A stretch of 36,324 bases of DNA from the NCBI GenBank assembly GCA_024508935.1, contig JANINW010000004.1, positions 1-36,324 on the forward strand, in the 5' to 3' direction. This stretch comes from Flavipsychrobacter sp. (GTDB taxonomy: Bacteria; Bacteroidota; Bacteroidia; Chitinophagales; Chitinophagaceae). Both the position numbers and the translations under genes were made by a program. Below, piece after piece: positions 27,907 through 36,324 of the stretch. Each line of letters opens with the position of its first letter. The stretch's first letter is position 1. Below the pieces are notes generated by a model. That model was not told the origin of the DNA. It did not search any database and saw only the letters and a list, made by a program, of their open reading frames with translations.

Positions 27907-28524
27907 CTAATGATTACCGGTTGCAGCTGTATGCCTTTCGCTGAGGTGCGCGGCTATGGCTGACAGGCTGCTGCCTTTGGCCTGCAATAATATCAGCAGG
28001 TGAAAGACCAGGTCGGCTGCTTCGTTAGTGAAGAGTTGGTCATCATTGCCCAGTGCTTCTATTACCAGTTCTACGGCTTCTTCGCCTACTTTCTGCGCTA
28101 TCTTACCTATGCCTTTGCTGAAGAGGCTGGTGGTATAAGAGCCTTCAGGCATTTGCTCTTTACGCGCTGCGATCAATTGCTCCAGTACAGAGAGAAAATA
28201 ATAGCCTGTTTGCCCGGTGGTGCCAAAACAAGTATCGTCACCGGTGTGGCATACAGGCCCGGCAGGCAGCGCTTGCACCAGCAGTGCATCGCGGTCGCAG
28301 TCGGTAGCCATACTGTCCAGGTGCAGGAAATTGCCGGAGCTTTCTCCCTTCACCCATATAGCCTGCCGCGAACGGCTGTAGAAGGTTACCAGCTTTGTTT
28401 GCTGTGTTTGCTGCCAGGCAGCTTGGTTCATATAGCCCAGCATCAGCACCTGGCCGGTGGTAGCGTGCTGTACAATAGCGGGTACCAGCCCGTCAGGATA
28501 TTTTTCAAATAGCGGCGTGTTCAT
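27907..28524 (-). CDS. hisIE: Phosphoribosyl-AMP cyclohydrolase / phosphoribosyl-ATP pyrophosphatase
   Basis: A 205-residue bifunctional enzyme for steps 2 and 3 of histidine synthesis. The N-terminal cyclohydrolase half has GYMNQAAW, TFYSRSRQAIWVKGESSGN and the metal-binding DCDRD and GPVCHTGDDTCF segments. The C-terminal pyrophosphatase half has GIGKIAQKVGEEAVELVIEAL and EAADLVFHLLILLQA. The fused form is the usual one in Bacteroidota. It is the last gene of the his operon; its start overlaps hisF by four bases. No terminator is seen in the 16 bases before the convergent gene. Confidence 0.96.
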   Translation of the reverse strand: MNTPLFEKYPDGLVPAIVQHATTGQVLMLGYMNQAAWQQTQQTKLVTFYSRSRQAIWVKGESSGNFLHLDSMATDCDRDALLVQALPAGPVCHTGDDTCFGTTGQTGYYFLSVLEQLIAARKEQMPEGSYTTSLFSKGIGKIAQKVGEEAVELVIEALGNDDQLFTNEAADLVFHLLILLQAKGSSLSAIAAHLSERHTAATGNH

Positions 28525-29282
28525 AAGCGTACAGGTATTTTTTGTTTGTAGAGATATTGTTTCACTTGGGGTATGGTGATGCTTTCTTCGTGGAAGATAC
28601 CTGCAGCCAGTGCAGCATCGGCACCGGTCTGCTCAAATACATCGGCAAAATGCTGCAGGCTGCCTGCACCACCGCTGGCTATAACAGGCACCTGCACGCG
28701 TGCGGTTACCTCCTGCAATAAAGACAATGCAAAGCCCTTCCTGCCACCATCGTTATTGATAGAGGTGAGCAATATTTCGCCCGCACCCATCTGCACGGCT
28801 TGTTCTATCCAGCACAGCACGCTGATGCCCGTGTTTTTCCTTCCGCCATTCACATATACCTGCCAGTTGCCATCAGCCTGCATACCCGCATCGGCGGCCA
28901 GTACTACGCACTGGCTGCCAAAACGTTTGGCCAGTTTGCTTACCAGCGCAGGTTCTTTTACCGCTGCACTGTTTACCGATATTTTATCAGCACCGGCACT
29001 GAGCAGGTTGTAGGCATCCGCCTCGCTGCTGATGCCGCCACCCACGGTAAAAGGAATATTCACCTGCCGGGCTACTGATTTTATCAATGACAAAAATATT
29101 TTCCTTTCCTGTATCGTAGCGGTTATGTCCAGGAACAGTAATTCATCGGCACCCTGCGCAGCATAGCGGGCAGCCAGTGCTACCGGGTCGCCCATATCGC
29201 GCAGGTTTACAAAAGCAGTGCCTTTTACTACTTTGCCGTCTTTTACATCCAGGCAGGGTATGATGCGTTTGGTCAGTGGCAT
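28521..29282 (-). CDS. hisF: Imidazole glycerol phosphate synthase, cyclase subunit
   Basis: A 253-residue TIM-barrel cyclase that with HisH converts PRFAR and ammonia to imidazole glycerol phosphate and AICAR. Catalytic residues are D12 in IPCLDVKDGKVVKG and D131 in LAADAGMQADG. Phosphate-binding loops are GGGIS (81-85) and ASGGAG near the C-terminal side. Length is normal. It lies three bases after hisA and overlaps hisIE by four bases. Confidence 0.97.
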   Translation of the reverse strand: MPLTKRIIPCLDVKDGKVVKGTAFVNLRDMGDPVALAARYAAQGADELLFLDITATIQERKIFLSLIKSVARQVNIPFTVGGGISSEADAYNLLSAGADKISVNSAAVKEPALVSKLAKRFGSQCVVLAADAGMQADGNWQVYVNGGRKNTGISVLCWIEQAVQMGAGEILLTSINNDGGRKGFALSLLQEVTARVQVPVIASGGAGSLQHFADVFEQTGADAALAAGIFHEESITIPQVKQYLYKQKIPVRL

Positions 29283-29285
29283 GGC

Positions 29286-30002
29286 TTATGCATATTTTAA
29301 AGCAGTTTGCAGGAAAGTGTGGTCTTCGTAAACAGCCTTGCCGGTGATGACGCCTGTGCACCCTGCGGCTTTGGCGGCTGCTATGTCTGCCGGCGATGAT
29401 ACGCCGCCCGATGCTATCAGCGATATACCCGGTATCTCCTCCAGCAGCCTGCTGTACACTGTAGCATCTATGCCGCTCATCATGCCGTCGCGGCTTACAT
29501 TGGTGCAGCAAAACTGCCTGAAACCCCGGATGAAATAGTCGCTGATGAAATCGGTGATACGTTTATCTGTCGTTTCCTGCCAGGCATTTACCAGCAGTAT
29601 GCCATCGCGCATATCGGCACTAATGATAAAGCGCTCATGGCCGTATGCCGTGCCCCAGTCGTACACGGTTTGCGGCTGCTTATAAGCCATGCTGCCAATG
29701 CATACCCATGTGGCACCGGCGGCAATGGCCGTTTCTGCATCGGCGCCGGTACGTATACCACCGCTGTAGTCTATGCGGAGGGTAGTGGCATTGGCTATAT
29801 CGCGCAGCACCTGTATGTTTTGCAGGGTGCCGCTTCGTGCGCCGTCAAGGTCTACGAGGTGCAGGCGTGTGCAGCCCATTGCTTCAAAGCGCCGCGCCAC
29901 TGCTACCGGGTCATTATCGTACACGGTCTTGCGCTGGTAGTCGCCTTGCGTGAGGCGTACACACCGGCCGGCTATAATGTCTATGGCGGGAATGAGTTCC
30001 AT
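29286..30002 (-). CDS. hisA: ProFAR isomerase
   Basis: A 238-residue TIM-barrel isomerase of histidine step 4. The acid/base residues are D8 in IPAIDIIAGRCVRL and D130 in ISADMRDG. Phosphate loops are SGGIRTG (80-86) and ASGGVSS. The first base of its ATG is the last base of the hisH stop (TAATG), so translation is coupled. Confidence 0.97.
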   Translation of the reverse strand: MELIPAIDIIAGRCVRLTQGDYQRKTVYDNDPVAVARRFEAMGCTRLHLVDLDGARSGTLQNIQVLRDIANATTLRIDYSGGIRTGADAETAIAAGATWVCIGSMAYKQPQTVYDWGTAYGHERFIISADMRDGILLVNAWQETTDKRITDFISDYFIRGFRQFCCTNVSRDGMMSGIDATVYSRLLEEIPGISLIASGGVSSPADIAAAKAAGCTGVITGKAVYEDHTFLQTALKYA

Positions 30003-30580
30003 TATAAGTTTAAAAAGTTTTTAAGGATGAGCAAACCATTGTCTCCCGATTTCTCCGGGTGAAACTGTACGCCGTAAAAATTATCTTTCTGCACCGCTGC
30101 GCTAAAGCTTTGGCCATAAGCTGCTGTAGCTATTGTAGCACGACTTACAGGCACGCCATAGCTGTGTACAAAATACAAGTAGCTGTTTTCGGGCAGCCCT
30201 TTAAACAAGTCGCCGCGCAGGTCGTACACATCGTTCCAGCCAATATGCGGTATTTTGGGTGCGTCCAGTTTTTGCACCTGCCCGCCAAGTATATCCAGGC
30301 AGGATGCGTCATCTTCGTCAGACGCTGTACAGAGCAATTGCATACCCAGGCATATACCCAGCATAGGCTGCTGCAAGCTGCGCAGTACATTATCCAGCCC
30401 GTTCTGCTGCAAGGATAGCATGGCACTGCCTGCAGCACCTACGCCCGGCAGTATTACTTTGTCTGCCGCACGTATCTCTGCTGCATCTGCACTGATGACG
30501 GGTGCTATACCCAGCCGGTTGAGGGCAAATATTACCGAGCATGTATTGCCCGCACTATAGTCTACAATAACCAGTTTCAT
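30002..30580 (-). CDS. hisH: Imidazole glycerol phosphate synthase, glutaminase subunit
   Basis: A 192-residue class I glutamine amidotransferase that supplies ammonia to HisF. The triad is C77 in LGICLGMQLL, H174 and E176 in FHPEKSG. The oxyanion strand is PGVGAAGSA. Length is close to the family norm. Its start overlaps hisB by four bases and its stop shares one base with hisA. Confidence 0.96.
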   Translation of the reverse strand: MKLVIVDYSAGNTCSVIFALNRLGIAPVISADAAEIRAADKVILPGVGAAGSAMLSLQQNGLDNVLRSLQQPMLGICLGMQLLCTASDEDDASCLDILGGQVQKLDAPKIPHIGWNDVYDLRGDLFKGLPENSYLYFVHSYGVPVSRATIATAAYGQSFSAAVQKDNFYGVQFHPEKSGDNGLLILKNFLNL

Positions 30581-31686
30581 AATATGCCTTTGGTTGAGGG
30601 TATGGTCATTTCAGTTGTTTCTTTCTTTATGGCCATCTTAATGCTTTTGGCCAGCGCTTTGAAAATAGCTTCTGCTTTGTGGTGTTCGTTATTGCCTTCT
30701 GCCTTTATGTTCAGGTTGCAGCGTGCACCGTCAGAGAACGATTTGAAAAAATGGTAAAACATTTCTGCCGGCATATCGCCTATCTTTTCACGTGTAAAAT
30801 CTGCATCCCATACCAGCCAGGGTCGGCCGCCAAAGTCTATAGCCACCTGCGCCAGGCAATCGTCCATAGGCAGGCAGAAGCCATAGCGGTTGATGCCCGC
30901 TTTTTTGCCCAGTGCTTCGCTGAAGGCGCTGCCCAGTGCTATTGCCACATCTTCTATCGTGTGGTGTTCATCGATATGCAGATCGCCTTTGGCTGTTATT
31001 AACAAGTCTATGCCGCTGTGGCGTGCCAGTTGTTCCAGCATGTGGTTGAAGAAAGCAATGCCTGTATCTATCGCATAGCGGCCACTGCCATCCAGTTGCA
31101 GGCGTATGTCTATCTGTGTTTCGGTAGTGCTTCTTCGTATAGCTGCTGTGCGGTATTGGCCACGCAGGTATTCGTATATCTCATCCCAGCTATTGGTTTG
31201 CGCAGCCAGCGCATCGCTTTGAGCCGGTGCTTCATAGTTTTGAAGGAAGATGGCTTTGCAACCTAAATTCTGTGCCAGTTGTACATCGGTATTGCGGTCG
31301 CCTATTACAAATGAATTAGCGAGGTCATACTCGCCGTTCATATACGGCATCAGCATAGCTGTACCCGGTTTGCGTGTAGGCAGGTTGTCTCCGGGGAAAG
31401 AGCGGTCTATATGGATAGCATAAAAGCGGATGCCTTCATTACCGAGTATCTCCAGCATTTTATTTTGCACAGTATCGAAATTTGCCTGCGGGTATTTATC
31501 CGTTCCAAGGCCGTCCTGGTTGGTAACCATCACGGGTATATAGTCCATCTCCGTGCATATTTTGTACAGGTTGCGTATAGCACCGGGCAGCAAGCTCAGC
31601 TGGCTTAGATCATCTACCTGGAAGGTAACGGGCGGTTCCTGTATCAGCGTGCCGTCGCGGTCTATAAATAATATTTTCTTACGCAT
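30577..31686 (-). CDS. hisB: Bifunctional histidinol-phosphatase / imidazoleglycerol-phosphate dehydratase
   Basis: A 369-residue fusion for histidine steps 6 and 8. The N-terminal HAD phosphatase has the nucleophile pair D9/D11 in FIDRDGTL, VTNQDG and GDRNTD. The C-terminal IGPD domain has the two metal-binding motifs DEHHTIED (about 239-246) and NEHHKAEA. The HAD loop that holds Zn through cysteines in the E. coli enzyme reads IDRSFPGDNLPTRKP here, with no cysteine, so this phosphatase is probably Zn-free. I prefer the ATG at 31686 (MRKKILFIDRDG) because homologues start there; another ATG at 31698 adds four residues. Either start overlaps hisC. Confidence 0.95.
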   Translation of the reverse strand: MRKKILFIDRDGTLIQEPPVTFQVDDLSQLSLLPGAIRNLYKICTEMDYIPVMVTNQDGLGTDKYPQANFDTVQNKMLEILGNEGIRFYAIHIDRSFPGDNLPTRKPGTAMLMPYMNGEYDLANSFVIGDRNTDVQLAQNLGCKAIFLQNYEAPAQSDALAAQTNSWDEIYEYLRGQYRTAAIRRSTTETQIDIRLQLDGSGRYAIDTGIAFFNHMLEQLARHSGIDLLITAKGDLHIDEHHTIEDVAIALGSAFSEALGKKAGINRYGFCLPMDDCLAQVAIDFGGRPWLVWDADFTREKIGDMPAEMFYHFFKSFSDGARCNLNIKAEGNNEHHKAEAIFKALAKSIKMAIKKETTEMTIPSTKGIL

Positions 31687-32725
31687 AGGTGTAAGCATTT
31701 AATGCGGTTATCAATGATCTGTTCTCACCGGCGGTGCCAATAGTAATACGCAGGCAGTTATCGCACAGCACCATGCCCGAACGGTTGCGCACAATGATGC
31801 CTTTGCTTTTGAGGTAAGCGTGCAGCGCATTTGCATCGTCTACCTGCACCAGTAAAAAATTGGCATCAGAGGGATAAACTTTTTTTACAGATGGCAATGC
31901 CTGCAATGCTGCTGACAGCGCTGTACGTGCTGCTATCAGCTGCTGCGTGGTCTCTGCTACGGTTGTATTGCCCGTTATCATTTGCGCAGCTAATTGCTGC
32001 ACGGCGGCATTGATATTGTATGGCGCCTTCACCTTATTGAGTACAGAAATGATCTGCGGCGATGCAAAGGCCATGCCCAACCTAAGCCCCGCCATGCCCC
32101 ATGCCTTGGAAAAAGTTTGCAGGATGACGAGGTTCGGATATGTATCCAACTGCTGCAAAAATGAATACGATGCATTGAAATCTATATAGGCTTCATCCAG
32201 CACCACCAGGCCGCTGAACTGCTCCAGCAGCTGCTGTATGCTGCCGGCATCAATGAGATTGCCCGTAGGGTTGTTGGGCGAGCAGATAAATATAAGTTTG
32301 GTCTGCGCATCTATGGCTTGCATTATTGCAGGCAGGTCTAACTGAAAATCTGCGGTAAGGTTTACTTTTTTCACCGCCACATCATTTATCTGTGCCGATA
32401 CTTCGTACATGCCGTAGGTAGGCGGGAAGACAAGAATATTATCTCTGCCGGGGTTGCAGAAAGAGCGTATCAGCAGGTCTATGGGCTCATCGCTGCCATT
32501 GCCCAGGTATATACATTCTTTGCGTACATTTTTTATAGCAGCGATAGCTGTTTTCAATTGCTGCTGCAAAGGGTCGGGGTAGCGGTTGTACAGGCTGCAC
32601 AGGCTATTCTCGTTGGCATCGAGATATATTACATCCTGCCCCGAATATTCGGAACGTGCAGAGGCATAGGGCGCCAGGCTGCGGATATTATCGCGTACCA
32701 GGTTATCAAGATTAAAATTGCTCAT
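31679..32725 (-). CDS. hisC: Histidinol-phosphate aminotransferase
   Basis: A 348-residue fold-type I PLP aminotransferase, histidine step 7. The PLP lysine is K207 in QTFSKAWGMAGLRLG. SPNNPTGN (149-156) and LDEAYIDF (176-183) hold the cofactor ring, and the substrate loop DANENSL is near residue 36. Length is normal. It overlaps hisD by four bases at its start and hisB by eight (or twenty) at its end. Confidence 0.97.
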   Translation of the reverse strand: MSNFNLDNLVRDNIRSLAPYASARSEYSGQDVIYLDANENSLCSLYNRYPDPLQQQLKTAIAAIKNVRKECIYLGNGSDEPIDLLIRSFCNPGRDNILVFPPTYGMYEVSAQINDVAVKKVNLTADFQLDLPAIMQAIDAQTKLIFICSPNNPTGNLIDAGSIQQLLEQFSGLVVLDEAYIDFNASYSFLQQLDTYPNLVILQTFSKAWGMAGLRLGMAFASPQIISVLNKVKAPYNINAAVQQLAAQMITGNTTVAETTQQLIAARTALSAALQALPSVKKVYPSDANFLLVQVDDANALHAYLKSKGIIVRNRSGMVLCDNCLRITIGTAGENRSLITALNAYTYA

Positions 32726-34017
32726 TGCTCATTTATTTTTTTAAGTCTTACAGAAACAGAAGCGGCGTGTGCATCCAGCCCTTCGGCCATAGCCATCGTC
32801 TCTATGGTATTGCCCAGTGCATTTAACCCTTCGGGGGAAATAGACTGGAACGTGACCTTTTTTACAAAACTGTCTACTGACACACCACTGTAGGCTGCCG
32901 CATATCCATTGGTAGGCAGCGTGTGGTTGGTGCCCGATGCATAGTCGCCTGCACTCTCCGGTGTATAGTTGCCGAGGAATACAGAACCTGCATTCACCAC
33001 CATGCCAGCCAGCGCATCGGCCTCTTTGCCGGCTATGATGAGGTGCTCCGGCGCATAACTGTTGATGATGTTCATACCCGCTTGCAGCGAAGTGGTGATG
33101 ATGGCTACGCTGTTTTGCAATGCGGCTGCGGCTATGTCTTTGCGTGGCAGTAATGCCAGTTGTTTTTCCAGTTCTGCATTTACCGCATCCGTTACAGCAA
33201 TGCTGTCGGTTACCAGCAGTACCTGCGAATCTGCACCATGTTCGGCCTGCGCCAATAGGTCTGCTGCAACAAAAGCAGGCTCGCAGCTATCGTCGGCCAG
33301 TATCGCTACCTCCGAAGGGCCTGCGGGCAGGTCTATGGCCACGCCCATGCTTTGCACCAGTAGTTTGGCGGCCATCACATAGCGGTTACCGGGGCCGAAT
33401 ATCTTCTGCACTTTGGGTATGGTTTCCGTACCGAAGGCCATAGCTGCAATAGCCTGCGCACCACCCACAGCGTATACAGCCGTTACACCGGTAAGCTTTG
33501 CAGCGTACAGGATAGCAGGGTATATCTCTGCCGGTGATGCAGCAGGTGTGCACACAATTATGTTTTTACAACCGGCTATTTTAGCCGGTATGGCAGCCAT
33601 CAGCAGCGATGAGAATAAAGGTGCTGTACCACCGGGTATATAAATGCCGACCGTATCTATGGCTATACTTTTGCGCCAGCACTGTACACCCGGCATAGTG
33701 GTGACTACAGGGCTGCTGTCGTTTGTGCAGGCACGGTGAAAGGTCTCAATATTCTTTGCTGCAGTGTTAATAGCTGCTTTCAGTTCCGGTGATATAGTAT
33801 CAGCAGCAGCAGACCATGTTGCCTCATTCAGTACTATACTGCTGCCGGTAAGGCCATCAAAGCGGCGGCAATAGTCCAGCAGTGCAGCATCGCCATTTGT
33901 TTTTATGTTCATGGCAATTTCTTTCACCGTAGCGTATAATTGTTCTTCGCTATTAGCCGGCCGCTGTAGTAGTTGCTGCAGTTCCTGTGCTGCAGGGTAT
34001 TTGAACACGCGCATCAT
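32722..34017 (-). CDS. hisD: Histidinol dehydrogenase
   Basis: A 431-residue Zn-dependent NAD enzyme for the last two oxidations to histidine. It shows IPGGTAPLFSS, FGPGNRYVMAAKLLVQ and DLPAGPSEVAI. The Zn site contributors are Q257 and H260 in QAEHGAD. YAPEHL and SAGDYASGTNHTLPTNG are also present. Length is normal. The start ATGATG overlaps the hisG stop (ATGA, four bases). Confidence 0.97.
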   Translation of the reverse strand: MMRVFKYPAAQELQQLLQRPANSEEQLYATVKEIAMNIKTNGDAALLDYCRRFDGLTGSSIVLNEATWSAAADTISPELKAAINTAAKNIETFHRACTNDSSPVVTTMPGVQCWRKSIAIDTVGIYIPGGTAPLFSSLLMAAIPAKIAGCKNIIVCTPAASPAEIYPAILYAAKLTGVTAVYAVGGAQAIAAMAFGTETIPKVQKIFGPGNRYVMAAKLLVQSMGVAIDLPAGPSEVAILADDSCEPAFVAADLLAQAEHGADSQVLLVTDSIAVTDAVNAELEKQLALLPRKDIAAAALQNSVAIITTSLQAGMNIINSYAPEHLIIAGKEADALAGMVVNAGSVFLGNYTPESAGDYASGTNHTLPTNGYAAAYSGVSVDSFVKKVTFQSISPEGLNALGNTIETMAMAEGLDAHAASVSVRLKKINEQ

Positions 34018-34868
34018 ACGATCATCTTTTCTATAGCAGTTACCAATATGCCCTGCGCGCCTTCCCTGCGCAGGCTTTCTATAATGTTCCAGAAATCATC
34101 TTCCTGCACTACCGAGTGCACAGAGCTCCAGCCTTCGGTAGCCAGCGGGAGTATGGTAGGACTTTTCATGCCGGGTATAATGCGGATAATGTTCTCTAAA
34201 TTCTCGTCCGGTGCATTCAGCAGTATGTATTTATACTTCTTCGAGCGCTTCACGGCTTCTATGCGGAACAGCAACTGGTCGAGTATGCGCTGCTTTTCTG
34301 CCGCCAGCACGGGGCCTTGTACCAGTACGGCTTCAGACCGCAGTATCACTTCTGTTTCTTCCAGGTTGTTGAGGAAGAGTGTGCTGCCGGAACTTACCAG
34401 GTCGCAAATGGCATCTGCCAAACCTATATTCGGTGCTATCTCTACCGATCCGCTTATTTCGTGTATCTCGGCACTCACACCATTGTCCTGCAAAAAGGCA
34501 TTGAGTATCACCGGGTAGCTGGTGGCGATACGCCTGCCCGATAGACAGGCTATGCTTTTATAAGCACTGCCCTTTGGTACAGCTACCGACAGGCGGCATT
34601 TGCCAAAACCCAGGGGCAGCAGGGTGGTGATGGGCTTTTGTTTTTCCAGCACTACATTCTCACCCACAATGCCAATATCGGCCACGCCGTCTTCTACGTA
34701 CTGCGGTATATCGTCATCGCGCAGGTACAGCACTTCCAGCGGGAAGTTGCCTGCTGTTACCTTCAGGCTGTTCACCCCATTGCTTACTTCTATGCCGCAT
34801 TCCTTCAGCAGGCCGATGGAATCATCGTGCAGGCGTCCTGATTTTTGTACTGCGATCTTTAGTTTCAT
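34014..34868 (-). CDS. hisG: ATP phosphoribosyltransferase, long form
   Basis: A 284-residue enzyme that joins ATP and PRPP in the first, feedback-inhibited step. The catalytic domains show KIAVQKSGRL, DIGIVGENVV, the PRPP-loop region near DLVSSGSTLFLNNL, and ATSYP. The C-terminal 75 residues (ILLNAPDENLENIIRIIPGMKSPTILPL, WNIIESLRREGAQGILV) are the ACT-like regulatory domain of the long form, so no HisZ partner is needed. It is the first structural gene of the operon and lies 14 bases downstream of the attenuator terminator's T tract. Confidence 0.96.
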   Translation of the reverse strand: MKLKIAVQKSGRLHDDSIGLLKECGIEVSNGVNSLKVTAGNFPLEVLYLRDDDIPQYVEDGVADIGIVGENVVLEKQKPITTLLPLGFGKCRLSVAVPKGSAYKSIACLSGRRIATSYPVILNAFLQDNGVSAEIHEISGSVEIAPNIGLADAICDLVSSGSTLFLNNLEETEVILRSEAVLVQGPVLAAEKQRILDQLLFRIEAVKRSKKYKYILLNAPDENLENIIRIIPGMKSPTILPLATEGWSSVHSVVQEDDFWNIIESLRREGAQGILVTAIEKMIV

Positions 34869-34881
34869 AATTTTTAGAAAT

Positions 34882-34912
34882 AAAAAAAGGGGCTTACCGT
34901 TAGGTAAGCCCC
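34882..34912 (-). terminator. his attenuator terminator
   Basis: On the minus strand GGGGCTTACC (34912-34903) and GGTAAGCCCC (34898-34889) form a perfect 10-bp stem with a 4-base loop, followed by seven T (34888-34882). It sits between the leader peptide's stop and hisG, so it must be read through for the operon to be expressed. The 5' arm can instead pair with GGTAGGCC (34968-34961) inside the leader ORF, eight pairs with one G-U, which would be the antiterminator. Confidence 0.9.
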
Positions 34913-34934
34913 TGTGAGAAATTGATAGTATGGT

Positions 34935-35018
34935 CTACTGCCCATGCACAATATCATCCAGGCCTACCCTGTGAAGGATAAGATGATGATGTTGATGCAT
35001 ATGCAGATTTTGAATCAT
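34935..35018 (-). CDS. hisL: his operon leader peptide
   Basis: A 27-codon ORF rich in histidine. It starts MIQNLHMHQHHHLILHR and has seven His among 27 residues (positions 6, 8, 10, 11, 12, 16 and 25); six lie within eleven codons. It ends at TAG (34937-34935), 23 bases before the first arm of the terminator. It is read in the same direction as hisG, begins about 20 bases after a promoter box, and is too short for usual gene finders. In the attenuation scheme known from enteric his operons, a ribosome stalled at the His codons when charged tRNA-His is scarce leaves the antiterminator strand free. The symbol is given by analogy. Confidence 0.88.
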   Translation of the reverse strand: MIQNLHMHQHHHLILHRVGLDDIVHGQ

Positions 35019-35040
35019 AGTTTTTGTGCTGCTATTGATG

Positions 35041-35072
35041 CAAACTAAAAAACTATTTTTCGAATTACCAAA
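35041..35072 (-). promoter_or_regulatory. Promoter of the his operon
   Basis: On the minus strand TTTG (35072-35069) is followed after 20 bases by TTAGTTTG (35048-35041), seven of eight matches to the -7 consensus TAnnTTTG. Spacing fits the 17-23 bases known for Bacteroidota promoters. Transcription would begin near 35035, about 17 bases before the leader peptide ATG. Confidence 0.6.
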
Positions 35073-35280: not shown

Positions 35281-36324
35281 ATGCAGCCCCGTTTATTTAC
35301 CATAACCTTTCCTATTAGTGCTATAAGGCACTTGCTATACACCTTATGTTGTCTATGTATCATCCCGCTTTACTGCCATGCACAGGGCGAGAATAATGTA
35401 TGGGCTTTCGGTATTAACGCAGGGCTCGATTTCAATTCCGGTACACCGCAATTTTTTATATCAAAATCGGCCACCAGCGAGGGTAGCGCTACGGTATGCG
35501 GGCCTGACGGGCAACTGCTGTTTTACAGCGATGGCAATCATGTATGGGACCGCAACCAAAACCTTACACCCAATGGCACCGGCCTGCTGGGCAATACCGG
35601 GGGATGGGCAACGCAATATGGCTCGTCTACGCAGGGGGTGGCCATCGTACCCTTCCCTGCCGATGTAAATAAATACTACCTCTTCACGCTCGATTGTGCC
35701 GAATCGATCACACCATATTATGCAGGCTACCTGCGCTATTCGGTAGTAGATATGAGCCTCAACGGCGGGCTGGGTGATGTAGTTGCCGGGCAAAAGAATA
35801 TTGTTGTAGACAGTTTTAAAAGCGAGAAGATGACCGTGGCCAAAGGCAGTGGTTGTTTTTTCTGGGTGGTAACACACCAGTGGGGCAGCAATGAATTCCG
35901 CAGCTATAAAGTAAGCGATAACGGGGTGGGGGCGGCTGTTTCTTCTTTTGCCAGCAGCATCCCTGCATCGCAGCTGGGGGGGAAATGGGATTATATGGGT
36001 GGTGAAATAAAAGTATCGCCCAACCAGGAATGGCTGGTTTGCGTGGGTGGCAGGCCGCTTGCCGCAGAACTTTTTCGTTTTGATAACAGTACTGGTATAT
36101 TAAGTAATGCTGCCAGCCTGTACAAAAGAGATACAGGTTACCTGTACGGTACCAGCTTTTCGCCCGATGGCAGTAAGCTATACTTTGGCGTGATGGATGG
36201 TGTAGGCGCTAAGAACTTACCGCTCTTTCAGTATGACCTGTCGCTGCTGCCGGATACGGCTGCTGTACGGAAGTCGGCCACCGAAGTAGGGCCGGCTTCT
36301 ACCTGGAGTGGTATGCGTATAGGT
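35281..36324 (+). CDS. Secreted protein, N-terminal 348 residues (runs off the window)
   Basis: An open frame from ATG 35281 to the window edge without a stop. The first 35 residues look like a signal peptide ending CHAQG. The mature part opens NNVWAFGINAGLDFNSGTP and continues with SATSEGSATVCGPDGQLLFYSDGNHVWDRNQ, TGLLGNTGG, STQGVAIVPFP and YYLFTLD, then later FSPDGSKLYFG. This is the opening of the large Bacteroidota surface proteins that often end in a gliding/T9SS sorting domain; that end is outside the window. The pattern is beta-propeller-like (kelch/WD type). Upstream, TATCTTTA at 35237-35244 is a weak promoter candidate. The 200 bases between the his promoter and this start hold nothing else that I can support. 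Confidence 0.8.
   Translation, partial: MQPRLFTITFPISAIRHLLYTLCCLCIIPLYCHAQGENNVWAFGINAGLDFNSGTPQFFISKSATSEGSATVCGPDGQLLFYSDGNHVWDRNQNLTPNGTGLLGNTGGWATQYGSSTQGVAIVPFPADVNKYYLFTLDCAESITPYYAGYLRYSVVDMSLNGGLGDVVAGQKNIVVDSFKSEKMTVAKGSGCFFWVVTHQWGSNEFRSYKVSDNGVGAAVSSFASSIPASQLGGKWDYMGGEIKVSPNQEWLVCVGGRPLAAELFRFDNSTGILSNAASLYKRDTGYLYGTSFSPDGSKLYFGVMDGVGAKNLPLFQYDLSLLPDTAAVRKSATEVGPASTWSGMRIG

Follow-up and report, generated by a model that had tools for sequence, protein, structure and literature searches.

The stretch of DNA immediately upstream of hisG in Flavipsychrobacter sp. is very probably a leader-peptide (ribosome-mediated) transcription attenuator of the histidine operon. The window, that is, the whole 36,324-nt stretch analyzed here (contig JANINW010000004.1 of assembly GCA_024508935.1), was compared with its relatives and folded in silico. 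The argument is carried by a His-rich leader ORF, an intrinsic terminator and alternative pairings that co-vary, and by how these features are distributed among related genomes; it supports the attenuator interpretation already offered in a first-pass annotation of this sequence.

Attenuation by ribosome stalling is a textbook principle. In the enteric his attenuator, the 5' arm of the 1:2 hairpin contains the His codons, and antiterminator and terminator are mutually exclusive. The corresponding parts of the leader and operon in the window are as follows.

35041-35072, minus strand: candidate promoter of the Bacteroidota type, read from the sequence, with TTTG at 35072-35069, a 20-nt spacer and TTAGTTTG at 35048-35041
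34935-35018, minus strand: leader ORF of 27 codons, seven of them His, with the peptide MIQNLHMHQHHHLILHRVGLDDIVHGQ and the stop codon TAG at 34937-34935
34975-35006, minus strand: strand 1, the 5' arm of a long 1:2 hairpin (CTGC, TATGCA, CAA, ATCATC, CTTATCCT), from predicted fold and swap test
34983-34991, minus strand: run of three His codons, CATCATCAT, the proposed stall site
34938-34970, minus strand: strand 2, the 3' arm of the 1:2 hairpin in the predicted fold, holding the CAT of His25 at 34946-34944
34961-34968, minus strand: core antiterminator strand GGTAGGCC, within strand 2
34903-34910, minus strand: strand 3 core GGCTTACC, which can pair with strand 2 (antiterminator) or strand 4 (terminator)
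34882-34913, minus strand: intrinsic terminator with an 11-bp stem, a TAAC loop and seven T
34014-34868, minus strand: hisG, the first gene of the operon, with ATG at 34868 (NCBIfam TIGR00070, over the cut-off)
27907-34017, minus strand: hisD, hisC, hisB, hisH, hisA, hisF and hisIE, consecutively (NCBIfam)

The his operon directly downstream of the leader is complete (hisG-D-C-B-H-A-F-IE). Matches to NCBIfam models exceeded the cut-off for hisD, hisC, hisB, hisH, hisF and hisIE, and the best match of hisA, TIGR00007, reached 222.1 bits, just under the curated cut-off of 228.95. Elsewhere in the window, a large ORF on the plus strand (35281-36324) is divergent from the his leader and runs off the window end, and a tRNA gene (Rfam RF00005) is located at 3-76 on the minus strand.

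All letters of the TTTG-N20-TTAGTTTG promoter claimed by the first-pass annotation are present, and transcription is predicted to start a few nucleotides past it, at about 35038-35034. With 22 nt from this element to the ATG, the window's leader would have a short 5' UTR. The leader ORF reads exactly as annotated, three of its His codons being consecutive at 34991-34983; in the ORF list it appears as the 3' portion of a 57-aa ORF in the same frame. His occupies codons 6, 8, 10, 11, 12, 16 and 25, so that 7 of 27 codons in this ORF, which stands before the first gene of the operon, specify the operon's amino acid. The terminator had been described as a 10-bp stem with seven T before hisG; these are present (GGGGCTTACC-TAAC-GGTAAGCCCC-T7 at 34912-34882), but the stem has 11 bp once A34913 is counted. 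It lies between the leader ORF and hisG, whose start is 66 nt downstream of the leader stop codon.

Two pairings compete within this leader. GGTAGGCC (34968-34961) is complementary to GGCTTACC (34910-34903) in the terminator's 5' arm over the eight pairs previously noticed, one of which is G-U; in a comparison with 200 dinucleotide shuffles of the window's spacer, the best 2:3 pairing reached p = 0.005. In the predicted fold, the 1:2 hairpin joins 35006-34975 with 34970-34938, ending just upstream of the stop codon, and consists of the segments CTGC/GCAG, TATGCA/TGCATG, CAA/TTG, ATCATC/GATGAT and the core CTTATCCT/AGGGTAGG. The early hairpin proposed before, GATGAT (34958-34953) with ATCATC (34990-34985), does pair in this fold, but it is the middle of the longer hairpin and not a separate structure. 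Similarly, the last His codon was correctly placed past the antiterminator strand, but this layout is not simply odd, because its CAT forms part of the 3' arm of the long 1:2 hairpin.

HisG was searched for in the genome contigs of 84,980 species, from which 80 loci were kept. Of 294 genomes searched within the window's family, 214 had a match, and 30 loci were taken; 111 loci yielded 101 distinct hisG upstream regions. Upstream regions in common with named records, such as L088/L008 (Taibaiella) and L104/L031 (Hydrotalea), identify this family as Chitinophagaceae. The detector looked for an ORF with at least three His in six codons and then for a terminator, and 2114 other 450-nt stretches from the same loci served as controls. 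A His-dense ORF was present in 100 of the 101 hisG upstream regions and in 117 of the 2114 controls. The ORF together with a terminator was found in 93/101 and 20/2114, respectively. Under a stricter detector (at least four His in six codons), the counts were 85/101 and 0/2114. The eight loci missed by the detector (L003, L006, L024, L036, L046, L052, L067 and L087) stand outside all pairing counts. According to the first-pass annotation, the attenuator would be refuted if homologous upstream regions had neither the His-rich ORF nor the alternative pairing; these counts, and the co-variation of the pairings described below, point the other way.

Across relatives, the His codons vary almost solely as CAT/CAC. 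The usual family peptide has about 16 codons (median 16), such as MNINVHTHHHHHFLPRG followed by the stop codon, and its LP-x-G end is encoded by the hairpin CTTACC-GGTAAG/GGTAGG, which forms the 1:2 core. In the family, strand 2 (GGTAAGCC) pairs with strand 3 (GGCTTACC), which alternatively pairs with strand 4 (GGTAAGCC), and the strand-3 core is nearly invariant. The distance from the last His codon to strand 2 was 13-19 nt in 85 of 93 loci, and in 41 this codon starts at exactly 16 nt. At 63 loci the stop codon overlaps strand 2, at 25 it lies downstream and at 5 upstream, and its commonest placement is GG-TAG/TAA at offset 2 (46/93). The window is among the downstream cases, and at 31 nt past the start of strand 2 its stop codon has a greater offset than any other of the 93 loci.

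In 78 of the 93 loci, the end of a TAnnTTTG element is 1-20 nt upstream of the leader ATG, and in 46 it is 8 nt or less away; a shuffled-upstream control, scored slightly differently, gave the element in 57 of 1860. The window is one of the 15 loci not scored, its own element having T in place of A at position 2. Because the promoter element is so near the ATG, many leaders of the family would be leaderless or nearly so. According to the available text of two studies, short 5' UTRs are uncommon in Bacteroidota, with about 3.7% of 5' UTRs under 10 nt in B. thetaiotaomicron (PMC7366714) and 5.5% leaderless in F. psychrophilum (PMC9723704).

For alignment A1 and the first swap tests, the 93 detected loci were reduced to 64 by removing near-duplicates, and four more were left out by hand (L056, L059, L069 and L073; 2:3 pairing is poor in L069, p 0.66, and L073, p 0.345), leaving 60. 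Columns of the terminator stem were 97.2% paired, with changes on both sides in 7 of 11 pairs. For 1:2 plus 3:4, 95.0% of cells were paired and 10 of 17 pairs changed on both sides, a result reached by 0 of 500 shuffles. For 2:3, 84.6% of cells were paired and the covariation score was reached by 1 of 500 shuffles; its seven double-change pairs were reached by 158 of 500, and slid versions gave 6-10. The weak co-variation of the proximal 2:3 pairing is explained by the proximal strand, which hardly varies.

When own partners were compared with swapped partners in all 93 loci, the z values were -18.4 for 3:4, -5.8 for 1:2, -8.6 for whole strand 1 with whole strand 2, -3.6 for proximal 2:3 and -9.2 for distal 2:3. 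Each was unreached in 1000 swaps, shared ancestry still being within these tests, and the results held with 64 and with 93 loci at values similar to those with 60. Pairing, swap and fold tests together indicate mutually exclusive 2:3 and 1:2 structures, column co-variation of 2:3 being weak when taken alone. The outermost 1:2 pairing, between the codons just before the His run and the end of strand 2, found no support as a general feature in the 60 loci (z -0.8; control further upstream, z -1.9).

We then modelled a ribosome that masks 12 nt downstream of the first base of the A-site codon. With the last His codon in the A site, strand 2 was free and 2:3 formed in 90 of 93 loci, and with the first His codon in 82; with the stop codon there, 2:3 formed in 5, strand 2 being blocked in the other 88. 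Without a ribosome, 1:2 formed in 70 loci and 2:3 in 23 when whole strand 1 was folded, and 2:3 formed in 75 when strand 1 lacked its 5' part. In the window, any of the three His codons of the run in the A site left 2:3 formed when strand 1 lacked its 5' part, and the last one did so with whole strand 1 as well. A ribosome waiting at His16 (CAC, 34973-34971) would mask strand 2 because this codon is so close to it. The window is one of the 5 loci in which 2:3 is still possible with a ribosome on the stop codon (8 pairs, -16.5 kcal/mol, strand 4 absent); with strand 4 included, the best fold is the 1:2 core plus 3:4, at -37.2 kcal/mol. The terminator is also the best fold with strand 4 and a ribosome on the third His codon of the run, which means that antitermination must depend on kinetics, as it does in every model of this kind.

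From this arrangement we infer how promoter use, translation, stalling, termination and a response to histidine would fit together. RNA polymerase would start about 20 nt before the short ORF, and the 5' arm of the 1:2 hairpin would include the His codons of this ORF. When histidyl-tRNA is scarce, a ribosome would stall on these codons, some 16 nt upstream of strand 2, and cover the 3' part of strand 1; strand 2 would then be free to pair with strand 3, no terminator would form, and polymerase would read into hisG. When histidyl-tRNA is plentiful, the ribosome would continue to the stop codon, which lies on strand 2 or shortly after it, allowing 3:4 to form and transcription to terminate near 34882. 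If no ribosome is present, 1:2 would form and leave 3:4 free.

To see how far the arrangement extends in the class Bacteroidia, we sampled 247 genomes, 108 of which had hisG. Upstream regions were read at 104 loci, three of them from the window's family; L216 was dropped as no hisG start was located. An ORF with a terminator was present in 75, a His ORF alone in 16 and neither in 13, and some of the 75 are weak by eye (e.g., L163, L168, L174, L198, L210 and L211). Strand 3 varies across the class (GGCTTACC, CCCGTTTGA, CCCGTCTGA and others). In 37 of 70 stricter cases it lacks the GCTT core, as in CCCGTTTGA, and the leader then has a matching strand 2, such as CTCAAGCGA. Leader regions paired better with their own strand 3 (-9.5 kcal/mol) than with foreign ones (-7.2 kcal/mol), 58 of 70 beating the median foreign region (Wilcoxon p 5e-10).

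The same scaffold also carries codons for other amino acids. A covariance model built from the family his leader (R1) was used for genome searches, and its second match in the window's genome (L237; C17:23074-23178, minus strand; E 1e-4) is a leader, MITNKLYKKTKRLAPR, before an aminotransferase gene. Within this genome, the his leader and the C17 leader are the only places with the GGCTTNCC-GGNARGCC terminator. R1 matched in 14 of 15 genomes of the genus, and 14 places were read: 12 have Lys-rich leaders before the same aminotransferase (L237, L286-L294 except L288, and L296-L298, with L294 counted from its first codons only), and at L288 a leader with Lys codons on the same scaffold precedes an aspartokinase gene. 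A Lys-rich leader before aspartate-semialdehyde dehydrogenase was found outside the genus set. At L246 (genome G418, contig 205), the leader MKTQTHNNNRFFALASR, with an Asn run, precedes asparagine synthase B. Leaders with Met/Cys runs of the MMCC type (MMNSMMCC, MMCCMMC) were found at L249, L250 and L254, L249 being upstream of a gene of the NIR_SIR (nitrite/sulphite-reductase) family. Six R1 matches (L255, L247, L252, L253, L244 and, as the last of the 14 genus places, L295) look like ordinary terminators or chance and were rejected as leaders.

Within the genus, histidinol dehydrogenase was found in 3 of 15 genomes and not in the other 12. In the two of these three besides the window's own genome, G536 and G542 (L263 and L262), HisG is only 56% identical to that of the window, and the leader is MLFNQLHHHHFHTSHRRA, with the terminator CCGCCTGAG. 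In a FastTree phylogeny of 50 HisG sequences, these two grouped with CCCGTCTGA-type lineages (support 0.956), apart from the window. It seems that, within the genus, the his operon and its leader were lost or exchanged as a unit.

Other explanations were weighed against these data. The terminator and antiterminator might be switched by a T-box, a riboswitch or an RNA-binding protein, with the His ORF incidental. The nearly invariant strand-3 core of the family is what a protein-binding site might look like, but across the class strand 3 is wholly different in sequence while the layout stays constant, and a switch without a ribosome leaves unaccounted for the His codons kept through synonymous changes, the 13-19 nt from last His to strand 2 in 85 of 93 loci, and the appearance of Lys, Asn or Met/Cys codons instead where a different pathway lies downstream. 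No T-box or riboswitch was detected at the Rfam gathering score in the window or 17 relatives, and we give such a switch a small chance of being correct.

A slighter chance still attaches to the leader ORF being an upstream ORF whose translation supports reinitiation at hisG, the terminator being constitutive. Bacteroidota are among the groups for which reinitiation at leader ORFs has been suggested (in the available text of PMC4833913), but in the window 66 nt and the terminator separate the stop codon from the hisG start, and this reading would account neither for the alternative 2:3 pairing nor for its co-variation. As for chance adjacency of a His-rich ORF and a terminator, which has the small size of the ORF and nothing else in its favor, the 85 of 101 regions against none of 2114 refute it, and its probability is negligible.

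With leader-peptide attenuation as the preferred reading, a broader proposal can be put forward, which we hold to be slightly less probable than its opposite: one scaffold, re-coded for each amino acid (His, Lys, Asn or Met/Cys), may be a general device of Bacteroidia. It would consist of a near-leaderless leader peptide whose stop codon forms part of the antiterminator strand (GG-TAA/TAG-GCC) and thereby dictates the recurring terminator GGCTTACC/GGTAAGCC, and it would travel with its operon between lineages. Bacteroidota are a major phylum of gut, soil and water, for which few regulators of amino-acid operons are described in the literature searched. If the proposal is true, codon runs would reveal from sequence which amino acid controls which operon, including operons of unnamed genes; the aminotransferase preceded by a Lys-codon leader, which has no exact family assignment, is an example. 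Such leaders, with promoters often 8 nt or less from the start codon, would also provide a natural setting in which to test transcription-translation coupling where Shine-Dalgarno use is weak, as it is in this phylum.

Among known systems, Rfam at its gathering score gives only the tRNA at 3-76 in the window and nothing in 17 relatives, and sub-threshold matches of the window were treated as chance. Vitreschak et al. in 2004 and Lopatovskaya et al. in 2010 are said to discuss attenuators beyond proteobacteria, possibly including Bacteroidetes. The Bacteroid-trp RNA motif presumably carries Trp codons. Like the present leader, this motif is a candidate cis-regulatory RNA of Bacteroidetes (RF01692; available text of PMC2864571), but it has no match at the gathering score in the window or 17 relatives. 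Histidine attenuators of Firmicutes (Bacillus cereus group, Peptostreptococcaceae and Erysipelotrichales) have been proposed by comparative genomics (PMC9413887); as far as the available text goes, they are alike in having a leader peptide with three to five consecutive His and attenuator, antiterminator and terminator hairpins, and unlike in phylum and sequence, the word Bacteroidetes being absent from the main text. Closer in phylum, the transcriptome of Flavobacterium psychrophilum gave strong clues for leader-peptide attenuation before amino-acid biosynthesis operons, with no operon named and the word histidine absent from the main text in the part available (PMC9723704). No description of a his attenuator in Bacteroidota was found in the full-text literature searched, as far as the available texts go; the earlier remark that such attenuation is little documented in this phylum is fair for his operons in that literature, but F. 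psychrophilum already offers strong clues for amino-acid operons.

The enteric his attenuator (RF00514, His_leader; 17.5 bits and E 0.9 against the window, with a gathering score of 49 bits) is alike in that a His-codon leader peptide, together with an antiterminator and a terminator that exclude each other, precedes the his operon. Unlike it, the Bacteroidota family has a peptide with a median of 16 codons, a stop codon within the antiterminator strand in 63 of 93 loci, and a promoter element often 8 nt or less from the start codon (46/93). Judged by its sequence, the window's leader would represent a known mechanism in a class-wide member that is new in the literature searched, with a predicted response to histidine.
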